DNA from: an uncultured Clostridia bacterium
Lineage (GTDB): Bacteria > Bacillota > Clostridia > Oscillospirales > Ruminococcaceae
Direction: 5' to 3'
Assembly (NCBI GenBank): GCA_947628615.1
Contig: CANRAO010000002.1
Location: 1-51,155, forward strand
Length of the DNA stretch: 51,155 nucleotides
Under the pieces are notes generated by a model. That model did not search any database. It saw only the letters and a program-made list of their open reading frames with translations, and was not told the origin of the DNA. Both the position numbers and the translations under genes were made by a program. Position 1 is the first letter of the stretch. Every line of letters begins with the position of its first letter. Positions 9,512 through 41,460 of this stretch are shown here, piece by piece.

Positions 9512-9540
9512 TGCTTTTGTATAATCACAAAAATACTGTC

Positions 9541-9653
9541 GTTTCTTCCATCCGGACTTTAACCGTCGGTTTTGGAATTTCACCAAATCGGCAGAGGTTA
9601 TCTCTGTTCGTGGACTTTAACCACCGGTGTGGAATTTCACCACCCCCTGAAAC
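9541..9653 (-). promoter_or_regulatory. FMN riboswitch (RFN element)
   Basis: The minus strand shows the conserved RFN blocks in order: AGGGGGTGGTGAAATTCC, CACCGGTGGTTAAAGTCC, a variable hairpin, GGTGAAATTCC, CCGACGGTTAAAGTCCGG and ATGGAAGAAAC. P1 closes as GTTTC (9649-9653) with GAAAC (9541-9545). FMN binding should favour the terminator at 9481-9511 and so repress riboflavin uptake. The variable hairpin contains the same AACCTCTG octamer as the terminator's 5' arm. Confidence 0.97.
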
Positions 9654-9696
9654 TTAATATTTTATTTTTATTTCAGATAGGCTTAGCTTTTTTATG

Positions 9697-33081: not shown

Positions 33082-33318
33082 TCACCTTGTGTATGCGTCA
33101 ATGTCTGATATTGAGCCTTTTACATCTTTAACTACTGTATTTAAACAGTCTTCAAGCGTTTTATCACTCTGCACTATTGCCTGTGCAAATTCATCCTCCT
33201 GTTTGCAAAAACTGATTAATACATCAGTAACAGGCTTTTTTACCGCATTGACATATTGGTTTCCCTTTTTAATTGTTTTCAGCTCTTCTCTTAATTTTTT
33301 GATTGCTTCTTTTTGCAT
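33082..33318 (-). CDS. PcfK/AcrIIA9-like small protein, apparently shortened
   Basis: 78 residues: MQKEAIKKLREELKTIKKGN, then FCKQEDEFAQAIVQSDKTLEDCL and VKGSISDIDAYTR, then stop. The middle resembles phage proteins often labelled PcfK-like or AcrIIA9-like Cas9 inhibitors, which usually continue past DIxAYxR with an AVxFYFPGA-type segment. Here that half is missing and the next gene starts at once. Identification is from memory of the pattern and is tentative; inhibitor function is not claimed. Confidence 0.45.
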   Translation of the reverse strand: MQKEAIKKLREELKTIKKGNQYVNAVKKPVTDVLISFCKQEDEFAQAIVQSDKTLEDCLNTVVKDVKGSISDIDAYTR

Positions 33319-33361
33319 TTTTTAACCTCCAATTAATTTTTTTAGAATATTATTCACTTTT

Positions 33362-34069
33362 TTATTCTTTAAAATATACCGCTCTAAGTATTGGGCGACT
33401 GTCATAGCTGCTTATCTGTTCTTCATAACTTATTAGCTTTGCGCCTTTATACATATTTCTCGGCTTTCGCCACTTTTTAAAATGTATTCTCTCTATTGTT
33501 ATTTTTGGCTGGTTTAAATTCCTGCTTGTCGTATATCTCCGTCCGTGTATAGCATTTTCACTTTGAAATGTTTTTGACGTTTCCTTGACCAGATATTCTG
33601 CAAGCTCGGTCAGATCATCAGTATATAAAACCTTAGAATGTACAGTTCCGTACTTATCCCAAATTTTCATTACTGCACTGAGCATTTTTATATCATTTAG
33701 AACTATGTGATGATGCAAACGATGTCTTTTATACTCGGTTACTAATATGTACTTAAGCTCTTCCCCTGCTTTCTTATATTCCCGACGTAACTTCCTCAAA
33801 AAGTTTGCTACAATCAACTTTGCTTTTTCGGGTTCAGGTAGTGTGCCGTTTCTATATGTTAAAGTACAATGTGCATCTTTACCTTTTTTAAAGTTTGCAT
33901 TCATCAGCCAAGATAGCTTTTCAATTGCATTTCTTTTATTTACCTCCGCTGTTCTCTCAGCTGTAGGCTTTTTTATTTCTGCTTTCCGTGTATGATTTCC
34001 ATACGCTCCTGAATGATATTTTTTAACTATAATAAAATTACCAGCCACAATCGTTTTTTTTATATACAT
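33362..34069 (-). CDS. HUH-type rolling-circle replication initiator (Rep)
   Basis: 235 residues with the three rolling-circle motifs: HCTLTY at 67-72 (motif 1), the histidine motif LHHHIVL with His 119-121 (metal binding) and a Y-x-x-K motif at Tyr159/Lys162 (EYLVK), Tyr159 being the likely nicking residue. The layout matches the Rep_ORF2/G2P-like family of Clostridial phages and filamentous phages. It should nick one strand at the phage origin and start rolling-circle replication. No helicase, primase or polymerase gene is seen in the prophage. Its leader holds an attenuator-like terminator and is overlapped by an oppositely directed small RNA; AAGGAAG precedes the ATG. Confidence 0.8.
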   Translation of the reverse strand: MYIKKTIVAGNFIIVKKYHSGAYGNHTRKAEIKKPTAERTAEVNKRNAIEKLSWLMNANFKKGKDAHCTLTYRNGTLPEPEKAKLIVANFLRKLRREYKKAGEELKYILVTEYKRHRLHHHIVLNDIKMLSAVMKIWDKYGTVHSKVLYTDDLTELAEYLVKETSKTFQSENAIHGRRYTTSRNLNQPKITIERIHFKKWRKPRNMYKGAKLISYEEQISSYDSRPILRAVYFKE

Positions 34070-34144
34070 TTGATTGCTTCCTTTTCATCTTGTGGTCGGT
34101 GAGTTAATTCCTTTATCAAGCCGTAAAAAAAGACAAGATTTTTT

Positions 34145-34172
34145 AAAAGTGCCTAAAATAGGCACTTTTTTG
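34145..34172. terminator. Bidirectional terminator in the rep leader
   Basis: AAAAGTGCCT (34145-34154) and AGGCACTTTT (34160-34169) form a perfect 10-bp stem with a five-base loop; T-runs follow on both strands. On the minus strand it lies 76 bases before rep, inside its leader, and would cut off read-through from the early operon unless bypassed. Confidence 0.8.
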
Positions 34173-34173
34173 C

Positions 34174-34202
34174 TTGACTTTTTATTTGCTTTCTGATATA
34201 AT
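34174..34202 (+). promoter_or_regulatory. Consensus promoter for an antisense small RNA
   Basis: TTGACT (34174-34179), a 17-base spacer and a perfect TATAAT (34197-34202) on the plus strand, in a region where all genes are on the minus strand. Confidence 0.8.
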
Positions 34203-34207
34203 ATTTA

Positions 34208-34272
34208 TGTAATATTTTGATTGCTTCTAAATATTACGGCAGTTACCGCCTCATTCGGTGACTGCTTTTTTT
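34208..34272 (+). ncRNA. Candidate ~64-nt antisense RNA targeting rep
   Basis: Starting about seven bases after the -10 box, GTAATATTT (34209-34217) pairs with AAATATTAC (34229-34237) around an 11-base loop. GCAGTTACCG (34239-34248) then pairs with CGGTGACTGC (34256-34265, one G-U) and is followed by seven T: a complete promoter-RNA-terminator unit. The first loop and its flank contain TTTGATTGCTTC (34216-34227). The identical plus-strand string occurs at 34069-34080, so this RNA is complementary over 12 nt to the rep Shine-Dalgarno/start region. It also overlaps the rep leader and the 3' end of the gene at 34251 in antisense. The design resembles copy-control RNAs of rolling-circle plasmids. 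A Rep origin hairpin is an alternative reading. Confidence 0.65.
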
Positions 34273-34520
34273 ATATCTCTTAATCTCACCGTCAAATAAC
34301 AATTTATTCCTTTCTGCTTGATTTTTGCCGAATACATATCTCGGCATTTTATTTTGCCGTTTACTTTTTCAACTTCACTCCTCATAATCATTGATACAAA
34401 CGTATACAACCCTGCTCCGTCACCATACGACGGCGAATATATGACATCCTTTCCAAGCCAGTCTATTACTGAATTGATCGTAGTAAACTGCTGTTCCGGT
34501 TTCTTAACTGCTGTCTGCAT
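34251..34520 (-). CDS. Hypothetical phage protein (89 aa)
   Basis: From the ATG at 34520 (GTGGAG upstream): MQTAVKKPEQQFTTINSVID, then WLGKDVIYSPSYGDGAGLYTF and a basic, beta-rich end (YLTVRLRDIKKAVTE). No family recognised. Its last codons and stop are folded into the terminator hairpin of the antisense RNA. Confidence 0.6.
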   Translation of the reverse strand: MQTAVKKPEQQFTTINSVIDWLGKDVIYSPSYGDGAGLYTFVSMIMRSEVEKVNGKIKCRDMYSAKIKQKGINCYLTVRLRDIKKAVTE

Positions 34521-34881
34521 TTTTATTCTCCACTTCTTTCTTTTCAGAATCATTATCACAAGCAGGCTTGTTGAACATTTCGTAAAAGCGTTCAGGATTT
34601 TCTTTATAGCAATCCTGCTTTTTAAATTTTCCTTCCATCAGGCACATCTCACAGCTCATATGACACTTGCAGCCTGTTTCGGTATTTCTGCCTTCTTCAA
34701 CTAAATACACGACCACTTTTGCTTCAAGATACTTTTTTACTGCTTCTGAGAACATTGCAACTGCACGCTTAGGATTGGTCGTTGTTTGCTTTGTCTTTCC
34801 AAATTCAATCGTATATTCGTCATTGTCATAGTGCATAAACACTTTATTTTCAAAGCTGTATACTTTTTTACTAGCCGCCAT
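34504..34881 (-). CDS. Hypothetical phage protein with Cys cluster (125 aa)
   Basis: I place the start at the ATG at 34881 (MAASKKVYSFENKVFMHYDN); the longer frame to 35034 runs through the upstream gene and has no ribosome binding site. A cysteine-rich stretch CKCHMSCEMC follows residue 80 and suggests metal binding. The C-terminus is acidic. It overlaps its upstream neighbour by 11 bases. Function unknown. Confidence 0.6.
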   Translation of the reverse strand: MAASKKVYSFENKVFMHYDNDEYTIEFGKTKQTTTNPKRAVAMFSEAVKKYLEAKVVVYLVEEGRNTETGCKCHMSCEMCLMEGKFKKQDCYKENPERFYEMFNKPACDNDSEKKEVENKNADSS

Positions 34882-35128
34882 ATCTTTTCCGCAACTCCTT
34901 GCTTTTATATTGACAGCTATCTGTCCATATATGCTTGTCCCTTGACCTTTCAGGATTTTCCTTATATCCCATATCATTGAGCATCTTGCGAACAAATGAA
35001 ACATTAATATTGCATTCGACTGCGATTTCTGCACTTGTTAATCCTTTTGTATGTAAGATGCGAAGTCTTTGCTTCAATTCTGACGAAGAAGCCGGCAGCT
35101 TTTTGTCAGTGGTCTTTTTCCGTTTCAT
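34871..35128 (-). CDS. Small helix-turn-helix phage protein (85 aa)
   Basis: A basic protein with a clear helix-turn-helix: LTSAEIAVECNINVSFVRKM near residues 30-49, preceded by LKQRLRILHTKG. It may be an early transcription regulator or a DNA-binding accessory. Ends RKRYGG; overlaps both neighbours, as in a compact early operon. Confidence 0.65.
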   Translation of the reverse strand: MKRKKTTDKKLPASSSELKQRLRILHTKGLTSAEIAVECNINVSFVRKMLNDMGYKENPERSRDKHIWTDSCQYKSKELRKRYGG

Positions 35129-35441
35129 TTATTATCTCCTTTATTACCTTTTCTACAAAGCATAAATCTACATACTGTCTTTTTTCAGCATCTGATAGCT
35201 GATCGTGATAAATAACTAATTCTTCGATATTCCGTCCAATTATCTCTTGACATTCCTTCAATTTGGTGTTATCATCTTTAATAGGATAGTTTTTGTTTGA
35301 GCTTGTCTCCGCTTTCTGCGGTGCAGGCTCTTTTTCTTTTTCTAGGGCTAAGATTGCCATTAGGACAGCTTCTGTACTTGCCGGTACTCCCATCATACTT
35401 CGCTGTCGCCTCAACTCTTTAATTGCTTCTTCTACTGTCAT
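35106..35441 (-). CDS. Hypothetical phage protein (111 aa)
   Basis: MTVEEAIKELRRQRSMMGVP begins a helical N-terminus; a charged linker (EKEKEPAPQKAETSSNKN) separates it from a second helical part (LKECQEIIGRNIEELVIYHD). No motif recognised. The 3' end overlaps the helix-turn-helix gene by 23 bases. Confidence 0.55.
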   Translation of the reverse strand: MTVEEAIKELRRQRSMMGVPASTEAVLMAILALEKEKEPAPQKAETSSNKNYPIKDDNTKLKECQEIIGRNIEELVIYHDQLSDAEKRQYVDLCFVEKVIKEIINETEKDH

Positions 35442-35450
35442 TTAATCTTC

Positions 35451-35606
35451 CTAACTTTCTGCTTTTAGCCATCTTTTTAGTGCAAAACTGCAATCACCAT
35501 CGTCACAATGAGTAGGACACGCTTCACAAAGCAATAAAACACTGCTATCTAAAAATTTGTACATCTCATCTAAACTCATAGATTTTATTTTTTCGTAGTT
35601 TGTCAT
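35451..35606 (-). CDS. Small Cys-rich phage protein (51 aa)
   Basis: ATG at 35606, after GGAGG: MTNYEKIKSMSLDEMYKFLD, then CEACPTHCDDGDC and a basic end. The arrangement MSxDEMxxFL...C..C is common to small proteins of Clostridial phages. Four clustered cysteines suggest zinc. Function unknown. Confidence 0.6.
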   Translation of the reverse strand: MTNYEKIKSMSLDEMYKFLDSSVLLLCEACPTHCDDGDCSFALKRWLKAES

Positions 35607-35620
35607 TTGATTTTTCCTCC

Positions 35621-35872
35621 TTAATTACACTCTTTAATTCCTAAGGCAACATGTCTTGGTTTTAAACCCCAACCGCTTAAAACATATGTTATTTCATATT
35701 CTTTTTCACTTATTTTGTGTTCAATTCGTTCTTCAAGTGTGTCAACTGGTATGAACTTGATATGGTCACCTGTTTGAAATTCTCTGTCATTGTTGCGTAT
35801 TTCAAAGTTTTTTCTACCGCTAAGTACATCATCACAAAAGTTTGTGTATAGCTTTAATTCATGTGTCTTCAT
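35621..35872 (-). CDS. DUF3850 domain protein (ASCH/PUA-like)
   Basis: 83 residues with the DUF3850 hallmark: MKTHELKLYTNFCDDVLSGR, KNFEIRNNDREFQTGDHIKF and YVLSGWGLKPRHVALGI. This is a small beta-barrel related to ASCH and PUA RNA-binding folds, frequent in phages; no activity is established. GGAGG precedes the ATG. Confidence 0.8.
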   Translation of the reverse strand: MKTHELKLYTNFCDDVLSGRKNFEIRNNDREFQTGDHIKFIPVDTLEERIEHKISEKEYEITYVLSGWGLKPRHVALGIKECN

Positions 35873-35993
35873 TTTTTACCTCCGTTTCCTTGCCTTGTAC
35901 GCTCTCCGTGCAGGGCGGTTTTTCTTTTAAGCATTTCTGCATTGCTTCGTTTATCTCGTTTAAACTTCTCTGATACTGTTCTTGGTAGGTCAT
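35859..35993 (-). CDS. Small phage protein (44 aa)
   Basis: ATG at 35993, overlapping the stop of the previous gene (ATGA), with GGGAGG upstream. Sequence MTYQEQYQRSLNEINEAMQK followed by a short Pro/Cys segment (EKPPCTES). It overlaps the DUF3850 start by 14 bases. Function unknown. Confidence 0.55.
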   Translation of the reverse strand: MTYQEQYQRSLNEINEAMQKCLKEKPPCTESVQGKETEVKNEDT

Positions 35994-36382
35994 TCGGTTA
36001 CCTCCCAGTTTTCAAAGTTCTCCTCATCCCAAGAATAATTGCAAAAGTGTTCAATAGCTTCTTTTAAAAATTTATTTCTATTCTCTCCGCACTCGTCTGC
36101 AAGTTTAACCATATTGTTAACCCATTGTGCTACTATTTTAGCTTCCCTTTTTACAATTTCTAATTCAGTCAATTCCTCTACCTCCATGCCTTTTACTTCT
36201 ATGCTTTTTTCTTTCTCCTCGCCCTCAAGCAGAGGTCTTAGCTCCTGCTCCTTGATAGGTATTGCGAAATAATCTGCCCAGCGTATTAATGTCTTTGGGA
36301 AGAATACTTTCAATGTCATTATTATGCTGTAACCTATTAATACAACTAAACCTATCATCGCTATTGCTGTCAGTGTTGGCAT
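35990..36382 (-). CDS. Membrane-anchored phage protein (130 aa)
   Basis: One N-terminal hydrophobic helix (LTAIAMIGLVVLIGYSIIMT, residues 4-23) is followed by a soluble acidic, helical domain (EVEELTELEIVKREAKIVAQ; DECGENRNKFLKEAIEHF). The domain should face the cytoplasm. No family recognised. Confidence 0.6.
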   Translation of the reverse strand: MPTLTAIAMIGLVVLIGYSIIMTLKVFFPKTLIRWADYFAIPIKEQELRPLLEGEEKEKSIEVKGMEVEELTELEIVKREAKIVAQWVNNMVKLADECGENRNKFLKEAIEHFCNYSWDEENFENWEVTE

Positions 36383-36430
36383 TTTTCGGTCAACTCCTTA
36401 TATTATCCTTTCTTTTAAACGTCCTGTATT

Positions 36431-36637
36431 TTACACTATCTGACCTTTCGCCTTTGCTTCTTCAGCTTCTATCGACTCAACAAGCCGTATGTAACTTTCA
36501 TCACTTAACAATCTCGAAGCTGCCTCGCCTACTCTTTTTGCCAGTATTTTGCCAAACTCAGGATCCAGTGTGTCAGATACAGTGCCGTCAGGGTAGTGAT
36601 AAACTACAGTCAACGGATTTTCTTTCTTTTTTGCCAT
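36431..36637 (-). CDS. Hypothetical phage protein (68 aa)
   Basis: MAKKKENPLTVVYHYPDGTV, a beta hairpin-like start, then an acidic helix (SDESYIRLVESIEAEEAKAK). No motif recognised. A separate early gene with 48-base and 113-base gaps to its neighbours. Confidence 0.55.
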   Translation of the reverse strand: MAKKKENPLTVVYHYPDGTVSDTLDPEFGKILAKRVGEAASRLLSDESYIRLVESIEAEEAKAKGQIV

Positions 36638-36750
36638 ATAAACACCCCTTTTAATGATATTGTTTTCAAAGTTTGGACTATTCTAATATGCGAACTTTGC
36701 ATATATAATTGTGGTTGGGATTTGCTTTAATTGTGACAATTTTGAAATAA

Positions 36751-36849
36751 TTATTTTGAAAAAATTGCAATGATTAGAGTTATTATTGAAATAACCAAAG
36801 CAATATCAGATTTATAATATGAATGTTTTTCCTTAACGGCTTTTTTCAT
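36751..36849 (-). CDS. Small membrane peptide (32 aa)
   Basis: ATG at 36849 after a GGGGGTGAGG stretch; MKKAVKEKHSYYKSD leads into one hydrophobic helix (IALVISIITLIIAIF). One of at least four micro-membrane proteins in this phage. Function unknown. Confidence 0.55.
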   Translation of the reverse strand: MKKAVKEKHSYYKSDIALVISIITLIIAIFSK

Positions 36850-36893
36850 TTTCCTCACCCCCTCTGCACATTCTATTTTGCTTTTTTTTGCTA

Positions 36894-37061
36894 CTATGGC
36901 TGAGTCGGGATATATTGGTTTTTTAATTCCTCAAGGTACGCTATCAGGTTCTGAAAAATCTCTGACTTTTCAAATCTGCACCAGTCGAGGTAAGGCAGTT
37001 CAAAAGACATTCGTACTACATGAGGATGTCCGTCTGAGATAAATTCTTCTGTTTGATACAT
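36894..37061 (-). CDS. Small phage protein (55 aa)
   Basis: ATG at 37061 with GGGGGTG upstream. MYQTEEFISDGHPHVVRMSF then LPYLDWCRFEKSEIFQNLIAYLEE-type sequence. Compact mixed alpha/beta protein without a recognised family. Follows the cro-like gene in the leftward early transcript. Confidence 0.55.
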   Translation of the reverse strand: MYQTEEFISDGHPHVVRMSFELPYLDWCRFEKSEIFQNLIAYLEELKNQYIPTQP

Positions 37062-37097
37062 TTTATTTCACCCCCCTGCTTGCTCTTTCCCTCTGCT

Positions 37098-37300
37098 TTA
37101 TGAGGCTTCTTTTATTCCCAAAAGGTCGTTTGGCGTAACACCGAGTGCAAATGCTATTTTTAAAATATCTTGCTCACGTATTGTTCCACCGCCATTAAGC
37201 AGATAGCTAAACTTTTTTCAGTATAGCCAGCTTGTTCGGCTACATATTTGTGTTTTAAACCTTTTTCCTTGATTATCTTTTTTGTCATTTCTGCAACCAT
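37098..37300 (-). pseudogene. Cro-like HTH gene with a one-base frameshift in an A6 run
   Basis: The first frame opens at the ATG at 37300, seven bases after AGGAGG: MVAEMTKKIIKEKGLKHKYV, AEQAGYTE. After AAAAAA (37213-37218 on the plus strand as TTTTTT) the frame shifts. Adding one A restores KKFSYLLNGGGTIREQDIL, KIAFALGVTPNDLLGIKEAS and a stop at 37098, a 67-residue XRE/Cro domain of normal make-up. Position, first gene of the leftward transcript opposite the repressor, is that of Cro. Either the gene is broken, or a homopolymer error or slippage is involved. Confidence 0.8.
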
Positions 37301-37326
37301 ATTTTCTTACCTCCTTTCAGATTTTA

Positions 37327-37488
37327 TCCAAATATCTTGGACTAATTAGATTTTAAACCAAGTTTCTCGAATTGTCAATAGTTAAATCCAAAAAACTTGA
37401 AACAAAAATGCACAAATATTTAGATAATTTTATGTGCGTGTTGTACAAATTTATTGGATTTAAAAAATTTTTATCTAAAAATCTTGAT
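37327..37488. promoter_or_regulatory. Four repressor operators of the lysogeny switch
   Basis: Inverted repeats of type TCCAA-N5-TTGGA: O1 37327-37341 (perfect), O2 37357-37371 (ACCAA-N5-TCGAA), O3 37387-37401 (TCCAA-N5-TTGAA) and O4 37474-37488 (TCTAA-N5-TTGAT). O1, O2 and O3 are spaced exactly 30 bases apart. O2 lies between the -35 and -10 of the leftward promoter; O4 overlaps the -35 of the repressor promoter. Confidence 0.75.
37350..37378 (-). promoter_or_regulatory. Leftward early promoter (PR-like)
   Basis: On the minus strand TTGACA (37373-37378), a 17-base spacer and TAAAAT (37350-37355). Operator O2 fills the spacer, so repressor binding should block it directly. It drives the cro-like gene and the early operon. 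Confidence 0.85.
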
Positions 37489-37512
37489 TATATGGTATTT
37501 TTATGCTATAAT
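37484..37512 (+). promoter_or_regulatory. Repressor promoter (PRM-like)
   Basis: TTGATT (37484-37489), 17-base spacer, TATAAT (37507-37512), 30 bases before the repressor ATG. Its -35 overlaps operator O4, which predicts autoregulation. Confidence 0.75.
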
Positions 37513-37541
37513 TTGAACAATCGTACAAGGAGGTGTTAAAA

Positions 37542-38006
37542 ATGATAGGAGATAAGATTAGACAGAGAAGATTAGAATTAGGACTAACTCAAATACAACT
37601 TTCTGAAAAGACAGACATTAAAAAAAATACTATCAGTAATTATGAAAATAATATTACTTCGCCAAGTGAAGAAAATTTAATAAGATTAATCAATGCTTTA
37701 AAGTGCGATGCTAATTTTTTATTTGAAGATGAGATGAATATAATTAAAACTGATAGATTTAGTTTTAATGAAAAAACACTCATAAAAAAATACCGCACTC
37801 TTGATAAGTACGGTAAACAGGCTATTGATAATTTATTAGATGTTGAATATAACAGATGCACAGTAACTGAAAACAAAGAAAAGACCGTAAAAATGTTTAA
37901 GGTTGCTCGAAGTTCAGACGGCGAAAAGCCTCAAACAGTCGAGCTTACACAAGAGGAGTATGAAAGACTTCTTAAAGCTGTTGAAATGGACGATAATGAG
38001 TTTTAA
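37542..38006 (+). CDS. XRE-family phage repressor
   Basis: 154 residues from the ATG at 37542 (AAGGAGG nine bases upstream; a GTG at 37533 lies within that site and is rejected). Residues 1-55 are a classical helix-turn-helix: MIGDKIRQRRLELGLTQIQL, SEKTDIKKNTISNYEN. There is no LexA/S24-type autopeptidase domain, so induction by RecA-driven self-cleavage is not expected; the C-terminal part (TVELTQEEYERLLKAVEMD) is probably for oligomerisation. It faces the cro-like gene across the operators and is the CI analogue. Confidence 0.88.
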   Translation: MIGDKIRQRRLELGLTQIQLSEKTDIKKNTISNYENNITSPSEENLIRLINALKCDANFLFEDEMNIIKTDRFSFNEKTLIKKYRTLDKYGKQAIDNLLDVEYNRCTVTENKEKTVKMFKVARSSDGEKPQTVELTQEEYERLLKAVEMDDNEF

Positions 38007-40160: not shown

Positions 40161-40200
40161 AGCATAACATTTTTTGTATGTCAAGATAGGAGGAAAATTT

Positions 40201-41331
40201 ATGCCAATTTACAAAATGAACGGCAAAAAAGACGGAAAACAAAAATATCGAGTGCGTGTCAATTATACTGATAGACTAGGAAAGGCAAGACAAATAGATC
40301 GTGTTGCCTATGGTCTTGATGAAGCCAAACAGCTTGAAAGAGAATTGAATTATCAGCTTAAGCATGAAACTCCAACGGCAAAAATGACAGTACAGGATTT
40401 ATACGACGAATATATCGAGGTTAAAAAACACGAAATCAGAGAAACATCACTTGACAAAACTAAGAAAAATTTAAAAAGATATGTTCTTGAACCTCTTGGA
40501 AATGTGAAAATTGATAAGTTAACTATTCCAGTCTTACAAAAATGGAAAGAAAACATTGAGCAGAAAAATCTTTCAATTAAAACTAGACAAAATAAATACA
40601 GTGAGTTTAGAGCATTATTGAATTATGCTGTAAAAATGGAATACCTTTCACAAAATCCTCTTATAAAGGTAGGTAATTTTAAAGCGCCCCTACAGCCTAA
40701 AAAAGAAATGCAGTATTACACAGCAGATGAATTTAAGAAATTTATACAAAAAGCAAAGGAAGAAGCCATACAAAGCGAAAATAAAGGATATATGCACAAA
40801 TGGCATTACTATGTGTTCTTTAACATTGCATTTTATACAGGGTTAAGAAAAGGTGAGATACACGCTTTGCAATGGACTGACATAAAAGACGGTTATTTAA
40901 GCGTTACAAAAAGCATAGCTCAAAAACTCAAGGGCGGCGACCGTATAACCCCTCCTAAAAACAGAAGCAGTATACGTACAATTCAAATGCCAGAGCCACT
41001 GATTCAAATTTTAAATGAACATTACGAAAGATGTAAAAGCATAATTGGTTTTAATGACAGCTATTACATTACCGGCGGAGAACGACCGCTAAGAGACACA
41101 AGTATCCAAAATGAACTTAAAAAATATGCTAAACTAGCAAATGTAAAGGCAATTCGTGTACACGATTTCAGGCATAGTCACGCTTCATTGCTAGCAAATG
41201 AAGGGATTAACATTCAAGAAATAGCTAGACGGCTTGGACACTCAAAAATCAATATTACTTGGGAAACGTATTCGCATCTTTATCCTAGAGAAGAAGAACG
41301 AGCAATAAACATCTTAAACAAAATCGTGTAA
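40201..41331 (+). CDS. int: Tyrosine-family phage integrase
   Basis: 376 residues from the ATG at 40201 (GGAGG seven bases upstream; an ATG 27 bases earlier has no such site). The N-terminus is an AP2-like arm-binding domain (KMNGKKDGKQKYRVRVNYTD), followed by a SAM-like core-binding domain. The catalytic set is present: Arg ~217 (YTGLRKGEIHAL), His321-x-x-Arg324 (HDFRHSHAS), His347 (RRLGHSKI) and Tyr357 (ETYSHLYP). It lies next to the 3' end of tRNA-Pro and would integrate there; no excisionase was recognised. Confidence 0.95.
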   Translation: MPIYKMNGKKDGKQKYRVRVNYTDRLGKARQIDRVAYGLDEAKQLERELNYQLKHETPTAKMTVQDLYDEYIEVKKHEIRETSLDKTKKNLKRYVLEPLGNVKIDKLTIPVLQKWKENIEQKNLSIKTRQNKYSEFRALLNYAVKMEYLSQNPLIKVGNFKAPLQPKKEMQYYTADEFKKFIQKAKEEAIQSENKGYMHKWHYYVFFNIAFYTGLRKGEIHALQWTDIKDGYLSVTKSIAQKLKGGDRITPPKNRSSIRTIQMPEPLIQILNEHYERCKSIIGFNDSYYITGGERPLRDTSIQNELKKYAKLANVKAIRVHDFRHSHASLLANEGINIQEIARRLGHSKINITWETYSHLYPREEERAINILNKIV

Positions 41332-41349: not shown

Positions 41350-41386
41350 AATACCGTCCTAAAAATAGGGCGGTATTACATTTTTG
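41350..41386 (+). terminator. Terminator after the integrase
   Basis: AATACCGTCCTA (41350-41361) pairs with TAGGGCGGTATT (41366-41377) with one U-G, loop AAAA, then ACATTTTT running up to the tRNA 3' end. Confidence 0.75.
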
Positions 41387-41460
41387 GTCGGAGTAACAAG
41401 ACTTGAACTTGCGACCTCTTGACCCCCAGTCAAGCGCGCTACCACCTGCGCCATACCCCG
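41385..41460 (-). tRNA. tRNA-Pro (GGG anticodon)
   Basis: The minus strand folds as a complete 76-nt tRNA with encoded CCA. Acceptor CGGGGTA/TACTCCG (one G-U), D arm GCGC/GCGC, anticodon stem CTTGA/TCAAG with loop CTGGGGG (anticodon GGG), T arm GCAAG/CTTGT with loop TTCAAGT. Its 3' end faces the integrase and is the presumed phage attachment site; the gene is intact. Confidence 0.95.

Follow-up and report, generated by a model that had tools for sequence, protein, structure and literature searches.

The 51,155-nt stretch analyzed here (the window) comes from an uncultured Clostridia bacterium and carries a tailed prophage with a gene for a rolling-circle replication initiator (rep, 33362–34069, minus strand). 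Opposite the leader of this gene, the sequence encodes a predicted short antisense RNA with its own promoter and intrinsic terminator. We propose that this unit probably restrains Rep as a countertranscribed RNA, in a tailed prophage replicating by the rolling-circle mechanism. The rep product has 235 residues and is of the HUH type (HHH motif). It matches PHROG 3584, 'replication initiation protein' (E 6e-51), and the Pfam family REP_ORF2-G2P (54.8 bits; cut-off 27.8).

The antisense unit and its loop in the window clade

The antisense promoter lies on the plus strand at 34174–34202. TTGACT (34174–34179) is separated by a 17-nt spacer from TATAAT (34197–34202), exactly as the sequence-only reading had described it, and the TGa in front of the −10 element additionally makes this an extended −10. 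The 5′ end of the RNA is predicted at 34207–34210, and the predicted RNA of ~64 nt (34209–34272, plus strand) consists of two hairpins and a T7 run. In the first hairpin the arms GTAATATTT (34209–34217) and AAATATTAC (34229–34237) enclose the loop TGATTGCTTCT (34218–34228). The second hairpin (34238–34266) has 11 pairs, G-T pairs allowed, and a loop of 7, and is followed by seven T (34266–34272); this terminator hairpin with its T-run (34238–34272) overlaps the 3′ end of an open reading frame on the minus strand (34251–34559). The RNA folds with −24.6 kcal/mol (z −7.12) and none of 200 shuffles is equally stable, so that sequence and fold both agree with the earlier description of a complete unit. 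A separate hairpin at 34145–34169 lies between the antisense promoter and the nick motif of the predicted origin (see below). It had been read as a terminator between the loop string and the rep start; that position is correct, and with an A-run and a T-run as flanks it is terminator-like in both directions. Rfam gave no match above the gathering score at the antisense unit, neither in the window nor in the loci of 20 relatives.

The first loop of the RNA matches the start of rep. The string TTTGATTGCTTC is found at 34216–34227, in the first loop, and again at 34069–34080, at the rep start, which confirms the 12-nt identity on which the earlier proposal was built. The loop segment 34216–34227 (plus strand) is complementary to the Shine-Dalgarno sequence and start codon of rep (34067–34082, minus strand), its predicted target. 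The predicted duplex has an energy of about −17 to −18 kcal/mol, and the target is mostly open in the predicted mRNA fold. When the RNA was dinucleotide-shuffled 3000 times, 3 shuffles matched the rep region −22 to +14 over at least 12 nt, and 8 matched the region −60 to +30 to that extent. In the whole 1.86-Mb genome the string has 3 copies, all in the window, while the same pattern read backwards has 1.

Four of the 14 other genomes of the genus that were searched carry rep at 96–98% identity, and the antisense RNA segment is present in 5 of 15 genus genomes, the window's own included. All four sister prophages keep the promoter, both hairpins and the complementarity between loop and rep start. 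The complementarity spans 13 nt in the four sisters and 12 nt in the window, where the deviating base would still permit a U-G pair. Among the five clade genomes variable positions are absent from the −35 element (0/6) and rare in TGnTATAAT (1/9, the n itself), the first RNA hairpin (2/30) and the second hairpin with the terminator (2/34 plus one gapped column). The predicted origin motif is invariant (0/33). The promoter spacer varies at 5 of 14 positions and the upstream open reading frame at 54 of 260.

The third exact copy of TTTGATTGCTTC, at 33298–33309, was not mentioned in the sequence-only reading. It covers codons 4–8 of a small gene on the minus strand (33082–33318). As a target in trans it was rejected; no homologue of the gene was found in the four sister loci (L036–L039). 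A copy with one mismatch, TTTAATTGCTTC, lies at 35418–35429 in codons 4–8 of another minus-strand gene (35106–35441) and is kept in the two sister loci in which the gene start could be aligned (L036 and L037). The predicted duplexes of the RNA with these copies (−18.9 kcal/mol at 33298–33309, −16.4 kcal/mol at 35418–35429) match the rep duplex in strength. Since both copies encode Glu-Ala-Ile-Lys, they are likely a coincidence.

Antisense promoters and a predicted origin in related rep leaders

The sequence-only reading had suggested a search of related prophages for the promoter and hairpin unit. Two sets of related rep genes were used. The first set comprises 57 rep loci, which after removal of 11 hand-picked near-duplicates and 1 locus with too short an upstream region gave 45 leaders. 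The second comprises the best 80 of 156 IMG/VR loci, reduced by 18 redundant and 4 short ones to 58 leaders, for 103 non-redundant leaders in both sets together. Start codons of the relatives were picked by script. The promoter threshold and the start window were chosen after one look at the first set, and the second set was scored with unchanged settings.

A strong promoter directed away from rep (score ≥6.5) is present in 23 of the 45 leaders of the first set and in 7 of 224 control windows; shuffles give a mean of 1.05 and a maximum of 4. On the opposite (sense) strand there is 1 in 45. Leaders of rep genes scoring above 200 bits have the promoter in 20 of 28 cases and those below in 3 of 17. 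The second set gives 25/58 on the antisense strand, 1/58 on the sense strand and 7/282 in control windows at the same score; at a score of at least 7 the counts are 20/58, 0/58 and 0/282, and at the looser score of 6 they are 31/58, 8/58 and 35/282. Slight widening of the start window brings the number of leaders with a strong antisense promoter to 51. An intrinsic terminator follows ~45–125 nt past the promoter in 42 of these 51, compared with 8 of the 52 weak-promoter leaders and 31 of 306 control windows. Promoter and terminator together are found in about half of the 103 leaders, beside the four sisters that keep the whole unit. Two isolated phages are among the strong-promoter leaders, the Latilactobacillus phages TMW 1.1381 P1 (L046) and TMW 1.46 P2 (L048). 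The antisense unit is beyond chance. An AT-rich, promoter-like sequence with a coincidental repeat, giving an RNA without function, could be argued from the window alone, in which 33300–37500 contains 14 promoter-like sites where 13.5 are expected; against the replicated enrichment over controls, the terminators and the spacing described next, such an explanation is highly improbable.

Comparison of the leaders of distant relatives also brought out a nick motif before rep. In the window it belongs to a predicted double-strand origin, CTTGATAAAGGAATTAACTCACCGACCAC (34092–34120, minus strand), identified by comparison with phiX174 and by a profile, with the nick predicted after CTTG (34117/34116). 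The CTTG-A nick context and the GACCAC end match the phiX174 origin; in the phiX174 record the origin is annotated at the A that follows CTTG. The window motif differs from the phiX174 or pC194-type origin in its internal spacing (29 instead of that in phiX) and in the hairpin that relatives have before the nick. A conserved CTTG-ATA motif at the gene of an HUH initiator, where Rep would nick, is shared with double-strand origins of the phiX/pC194 type. With an iterated profile of the motif, trained on the same 103 leaders, 80 of these contain it, and so does 1 of 308 control stretches. The motif is usually preceded by a hairpin, with −10.7 kcal/mol compared with −5.1 in controls (54 of 400 control folds are as stable). 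In the 80 motif-bearing leaders this hairpin is terminator-like in the sense direction in 35 and in the antisense direction in 37, and 11 of 399 controls are terminator-like.

The distance between promoter and nick motif is nearly fixed. Among strong-promoter loci with the motif, 30 of 43 have the predicted RNA start at a distance of 67–71 nt from it; among weak-promoter loci, 4 of 37 do. Six loci have strong antisense promoters farther from the motif, at 112–117 nt in five (L046, L066, L074, L094 and L134) and at 146 nt in L157. Because of the near-fixed spacing a coupling of promoter and origin is proposed, although a single-strand origin might show the same spacing. Tentatively, the −35 element, ~34 nt from the nick site, could be rigidly coupled to the origin in a general replication cassette of Bacillota rolling-circle tailed phages. 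Once loaded at the origin, Rep would then close the promoter, so that induction would release Rep in an all-or-none manner, while a plasmid-like brake would act in the lysogen. RepU of pUB110 gives an example of an initiator occluding a promoter: it coats its double-strand origin and silences the repU promoter next to it, as outlined in part of PMC5703833.

The main rival explanation is that the promoter and hairpins are themselves a single-strand origin, where RNA polymerase would act on the displaced strand and the transcript would prime lagging-strand synthesis. The known mechanism, in which RNA polymerase recognizes folded single-stranded DNA, is described in sections of PMC4595007 and PMC5703833. 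The polarity fits, since the template of the RNA is the strand that extension of the nick strand displaces, and so does the place just 5′ of the nick; the near-fixed spacing to the nick motif also agrees. In many relatives, moreover, the first part of the RNA region can pair with the promoter spacer and form an inverted repeat flanking the −10 element, with a mean of −14.4 kcal/mol for cognate and −8.2 kcal/mol for non-cognate pairs; in 16 of 31 the cognate pairing surpasses 95% of the non-cognate ones. The window lacks this repeat (only −2.9 kcal/mol). A full sigma-70 consensus with an extended −10 would already be active on the DNA duplex, in 42/51 the RNA is closed off by an intrinsic terminator, and complementarity between loop and rep start would be left unexplained, so that a single-strand origin is unlikely here. 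As RNA/spacer pairing is common in relatives and missing in the window, the window clade seems to have its own version of the unit, with a self-closed first hairpin and a loop matching the start.

Proposed control of Rep and its limits

A countertranscribed RNA limiting Rep would act as follows. On the minus strand the early operon comes first and is followed by the leader, which the antisense RNA overlaps. After the leader segment come the hairpin, the phiX-like nick site, the Shine-Dalgarno sequence and rep, in this order. A sense promoter scoring at least 6.5 starts in the interval −90 to 0 in 3 of the 51 leaders and in −270 to −180 in 1 of 51, none reaching 7 (control 0/102). Because no convincing sense promoter is found in the leader, transcripts from farther upstream would have to read through to give the rep mRNA, which would then contain the entire complement of the RNA. 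The antisense RNA, made from its own strong promoter, could then pair with the read-through leader along its whole length. In the window clade the loop could also block translation, by pairing in cis or in trans over 12–13 nt with the Shine-Dalgarno sequence and start of rep. As template copies rise in number, RNA would increase and Rep decrease; such a dosage brake would keep the prophage quiet and temper replication after induction.

Several observations weigh against this proposal. No strong promoter is found in 22 of 45 and 33 of 58 leaders, among them that of the isolated Butyrivibrio phage Arawn, where the best site scores 6.3 and is off position and the nick motif is kept. The distance from RNA start to nick in the window is 90, about two helix turns more than 67–71. 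The match of 12–13 nt at the rep start represents one evolutionary event, in five genomes of one genus. Outside the clade the longest rep-start match is 10 nt (L063, −11 to −2), unremarkable among 51 loci. Against shuffled RNAs, the start window reaches P ≤ 0.05 in 9 of 51 loci and two neighboring stretches do so in 4 and 5 of 51, so family-wide pairing between RNA and rep start is not established. Equilibrium folding indicates no switch in the window leader: blocking the RNA region leaves the hairpin before the nick at 0.97 both ways, without mutually exclusive stems as in an attenuator of the pT181/pIP501 type, and the accessibility of the rep start at 0.79 free or bound, unlike a closing of the ribosome binding site of the pSK41 type. 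Neither type of switch is seen in the window.

Other comparisons across the family are mixed. Permutation of partners gives P 0.021 for the longest match in −22 to +14 with the window and 0.096 without it; for −60 to +30 the values are 0/2000 and 0.0065. A duplex-energy permutation gives 0/2000, with base composition uncontrolled. The RNA of L013 has an 11-nt match to its origin tail. With the RNA region blocked, the rep start becomes less accessible in 11 of 51 leaders and more accessible in 5. A TTGG loop motif in the terminator hairpins was also considered and rejected (11/42; shuffles mean 7.1, maximum 15).

Two parts of the proposal stand differently. The architecture is stronger than first thought, and the duplex of loop and start is weaker as a general rule. 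The sequence-only reading had named homologous prophages that keep the hairpins without the complementarity as the finding that would speak against it. Other lineages do keep the RNA unit without a 12-nt match; the duplex at the rep start is specific to the window clade and its five genomes, and the antisense arrangement is general.

The antisense RNA might instead act mainly by transcription attenuation or by interference of convergent transcription at the hairpin 34145–34169, with the rep-start match incidental. Such an action fits the terminator-like hairpins that 35 of 80 leaders have, in the sense direction, between rep and the target of the RNA; it also fits the complete antisense overlap and a rep-start match that is not general. 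The blocked RNA region raised hairpin probability by more than 0.1 in only 5 of 21 relatives (lowering it in none; equilibrium folding) and not in the window, and the window's match, so rare among shuffles, covers exactly the loop and the start. We regard this mode as possible but somewhat doubtful. The RNA could also serve superinfection immunity: in the lysogen its main use would be to silence the rep gene of related phages entering the cell. The loop is predicted to act in trans, and P1 c4 and P22 sar are precedents of phage antisense RNAs, as presented in passages of PMC12197685. Nothing in this analysis separates an immunity RNA from copy control, and a repressor gene is present (37533–38006); immunity as the chief role is quite improbable.

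Genomic setting and relation to known systems

The window element is a tailed prophage with genes for portal, terminase, major head, minor head, tape measure, scaffold, integrase and repressor. The integrase gene (40174–41331) adjoins tRNA-Pro(ggg) (41385–41460), which is likely the attachment site. A leftward early promoter, TTGACA-17-TAAAAT, is located at 37378–37350. The early operon includes a gene for a DUF3850 protein (35621–35872, 83.6 bits), and an FMN riboswitch lies elsewhere in the window (9536–9658, minus strand, 104.1 bits). A sequence comparison of Rep with solved structures yields 3 weak matches only (best E 0.61) and no solved relative. Plasmid relatives are found in two records, and no nick motif is seen by eye in their leaders. 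Relatives of the host contig are Clostridia metagenome-assembled genomes from rabbit gut.

Countertranscribed RNAs of plasmid rep genes (pSK41 RNAI, pT181 RNAI, pMV158 RNAII, pIP501 RNAIII) are short, have their own promoter and terminator and lie opposite the rep leader, according to passages of PMC5703833 and PMC4485353. RNAI of pSK41 has ~83 nt and two stem-loops and lies ~100 nt upstream of the rep start, and antisense RNAs are predicted at the Rep initiation region of pC194 and pUB110 (both from sections of PMC5703833). RNAII of pMV158 has 48 nt and is directly upstream of the repB translation signals (in part of PMC4485353). The window unit has the same layout of a short RNA with its own promoter and terminator opposite the rep leader. 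It differs in its tailed prophage host, its REP_ORF2-G2P Rep and the absence of a leader switch by folding in the window, and also in a promoter 67–71 nt from a phiX-like nick motif in most relatives having both.

The CI RNA of phage P4 is a small phage RNA on the leader of a replication operon; it derives from the same strand by processing and its mechanism is termination. The c4 RNA of P1 and P7 is cut from a same-strand leader upstream of its target. To our knowledge, early replication of lambda is not of the HUH-Rep rolling-circle type. The window RNA resembles c4 in a loop complementary to a ribosome binding site, over 12 nt here and 13 nt in the sisters (for c4, as given in part of PMC12197685). 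Unlike c4, whose target is the antirepressor ant, it is on the opposite strand and its target would be the replication initiator. It also resembles lambda OOP, a short antisense RNA with a promoter near the replication genes, which acts on cII; c4, sar and OOP all target genes other than a replication initiator, as far as the relevant passages of PMC12197685 describe them. In the open-access literature we found no title describing an antisense RNA at a tailed-phage rep, and the main text of the Arawn paper has no word starting with replication or antisense. The earlier statement that such control is undescribed in tailed prophages is thus not contradicted by open-access titles. The best reading is that a countertranscribed RNA of the known plasmid type would here be placed, as a new setting, in tailed prophages.

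A 2017 review contrasts rolling-circle phages, which replicate without limit, with rolling-circle plasmids, which are copy-controlled (in a passage of PMC5714925 citing Novick 1998). If the proposal is true, an antisense brake would place tailed prophages between the unlimited rolling-circle replication of phages and the controlled one of plasmids. Such a brake would also account for how a prophage can live, while integrated, with a nicking initiator next to its origin, and would make prophage silence and induction accessible to testing. The antisense arrangement recurs in many uncharacterized phages.
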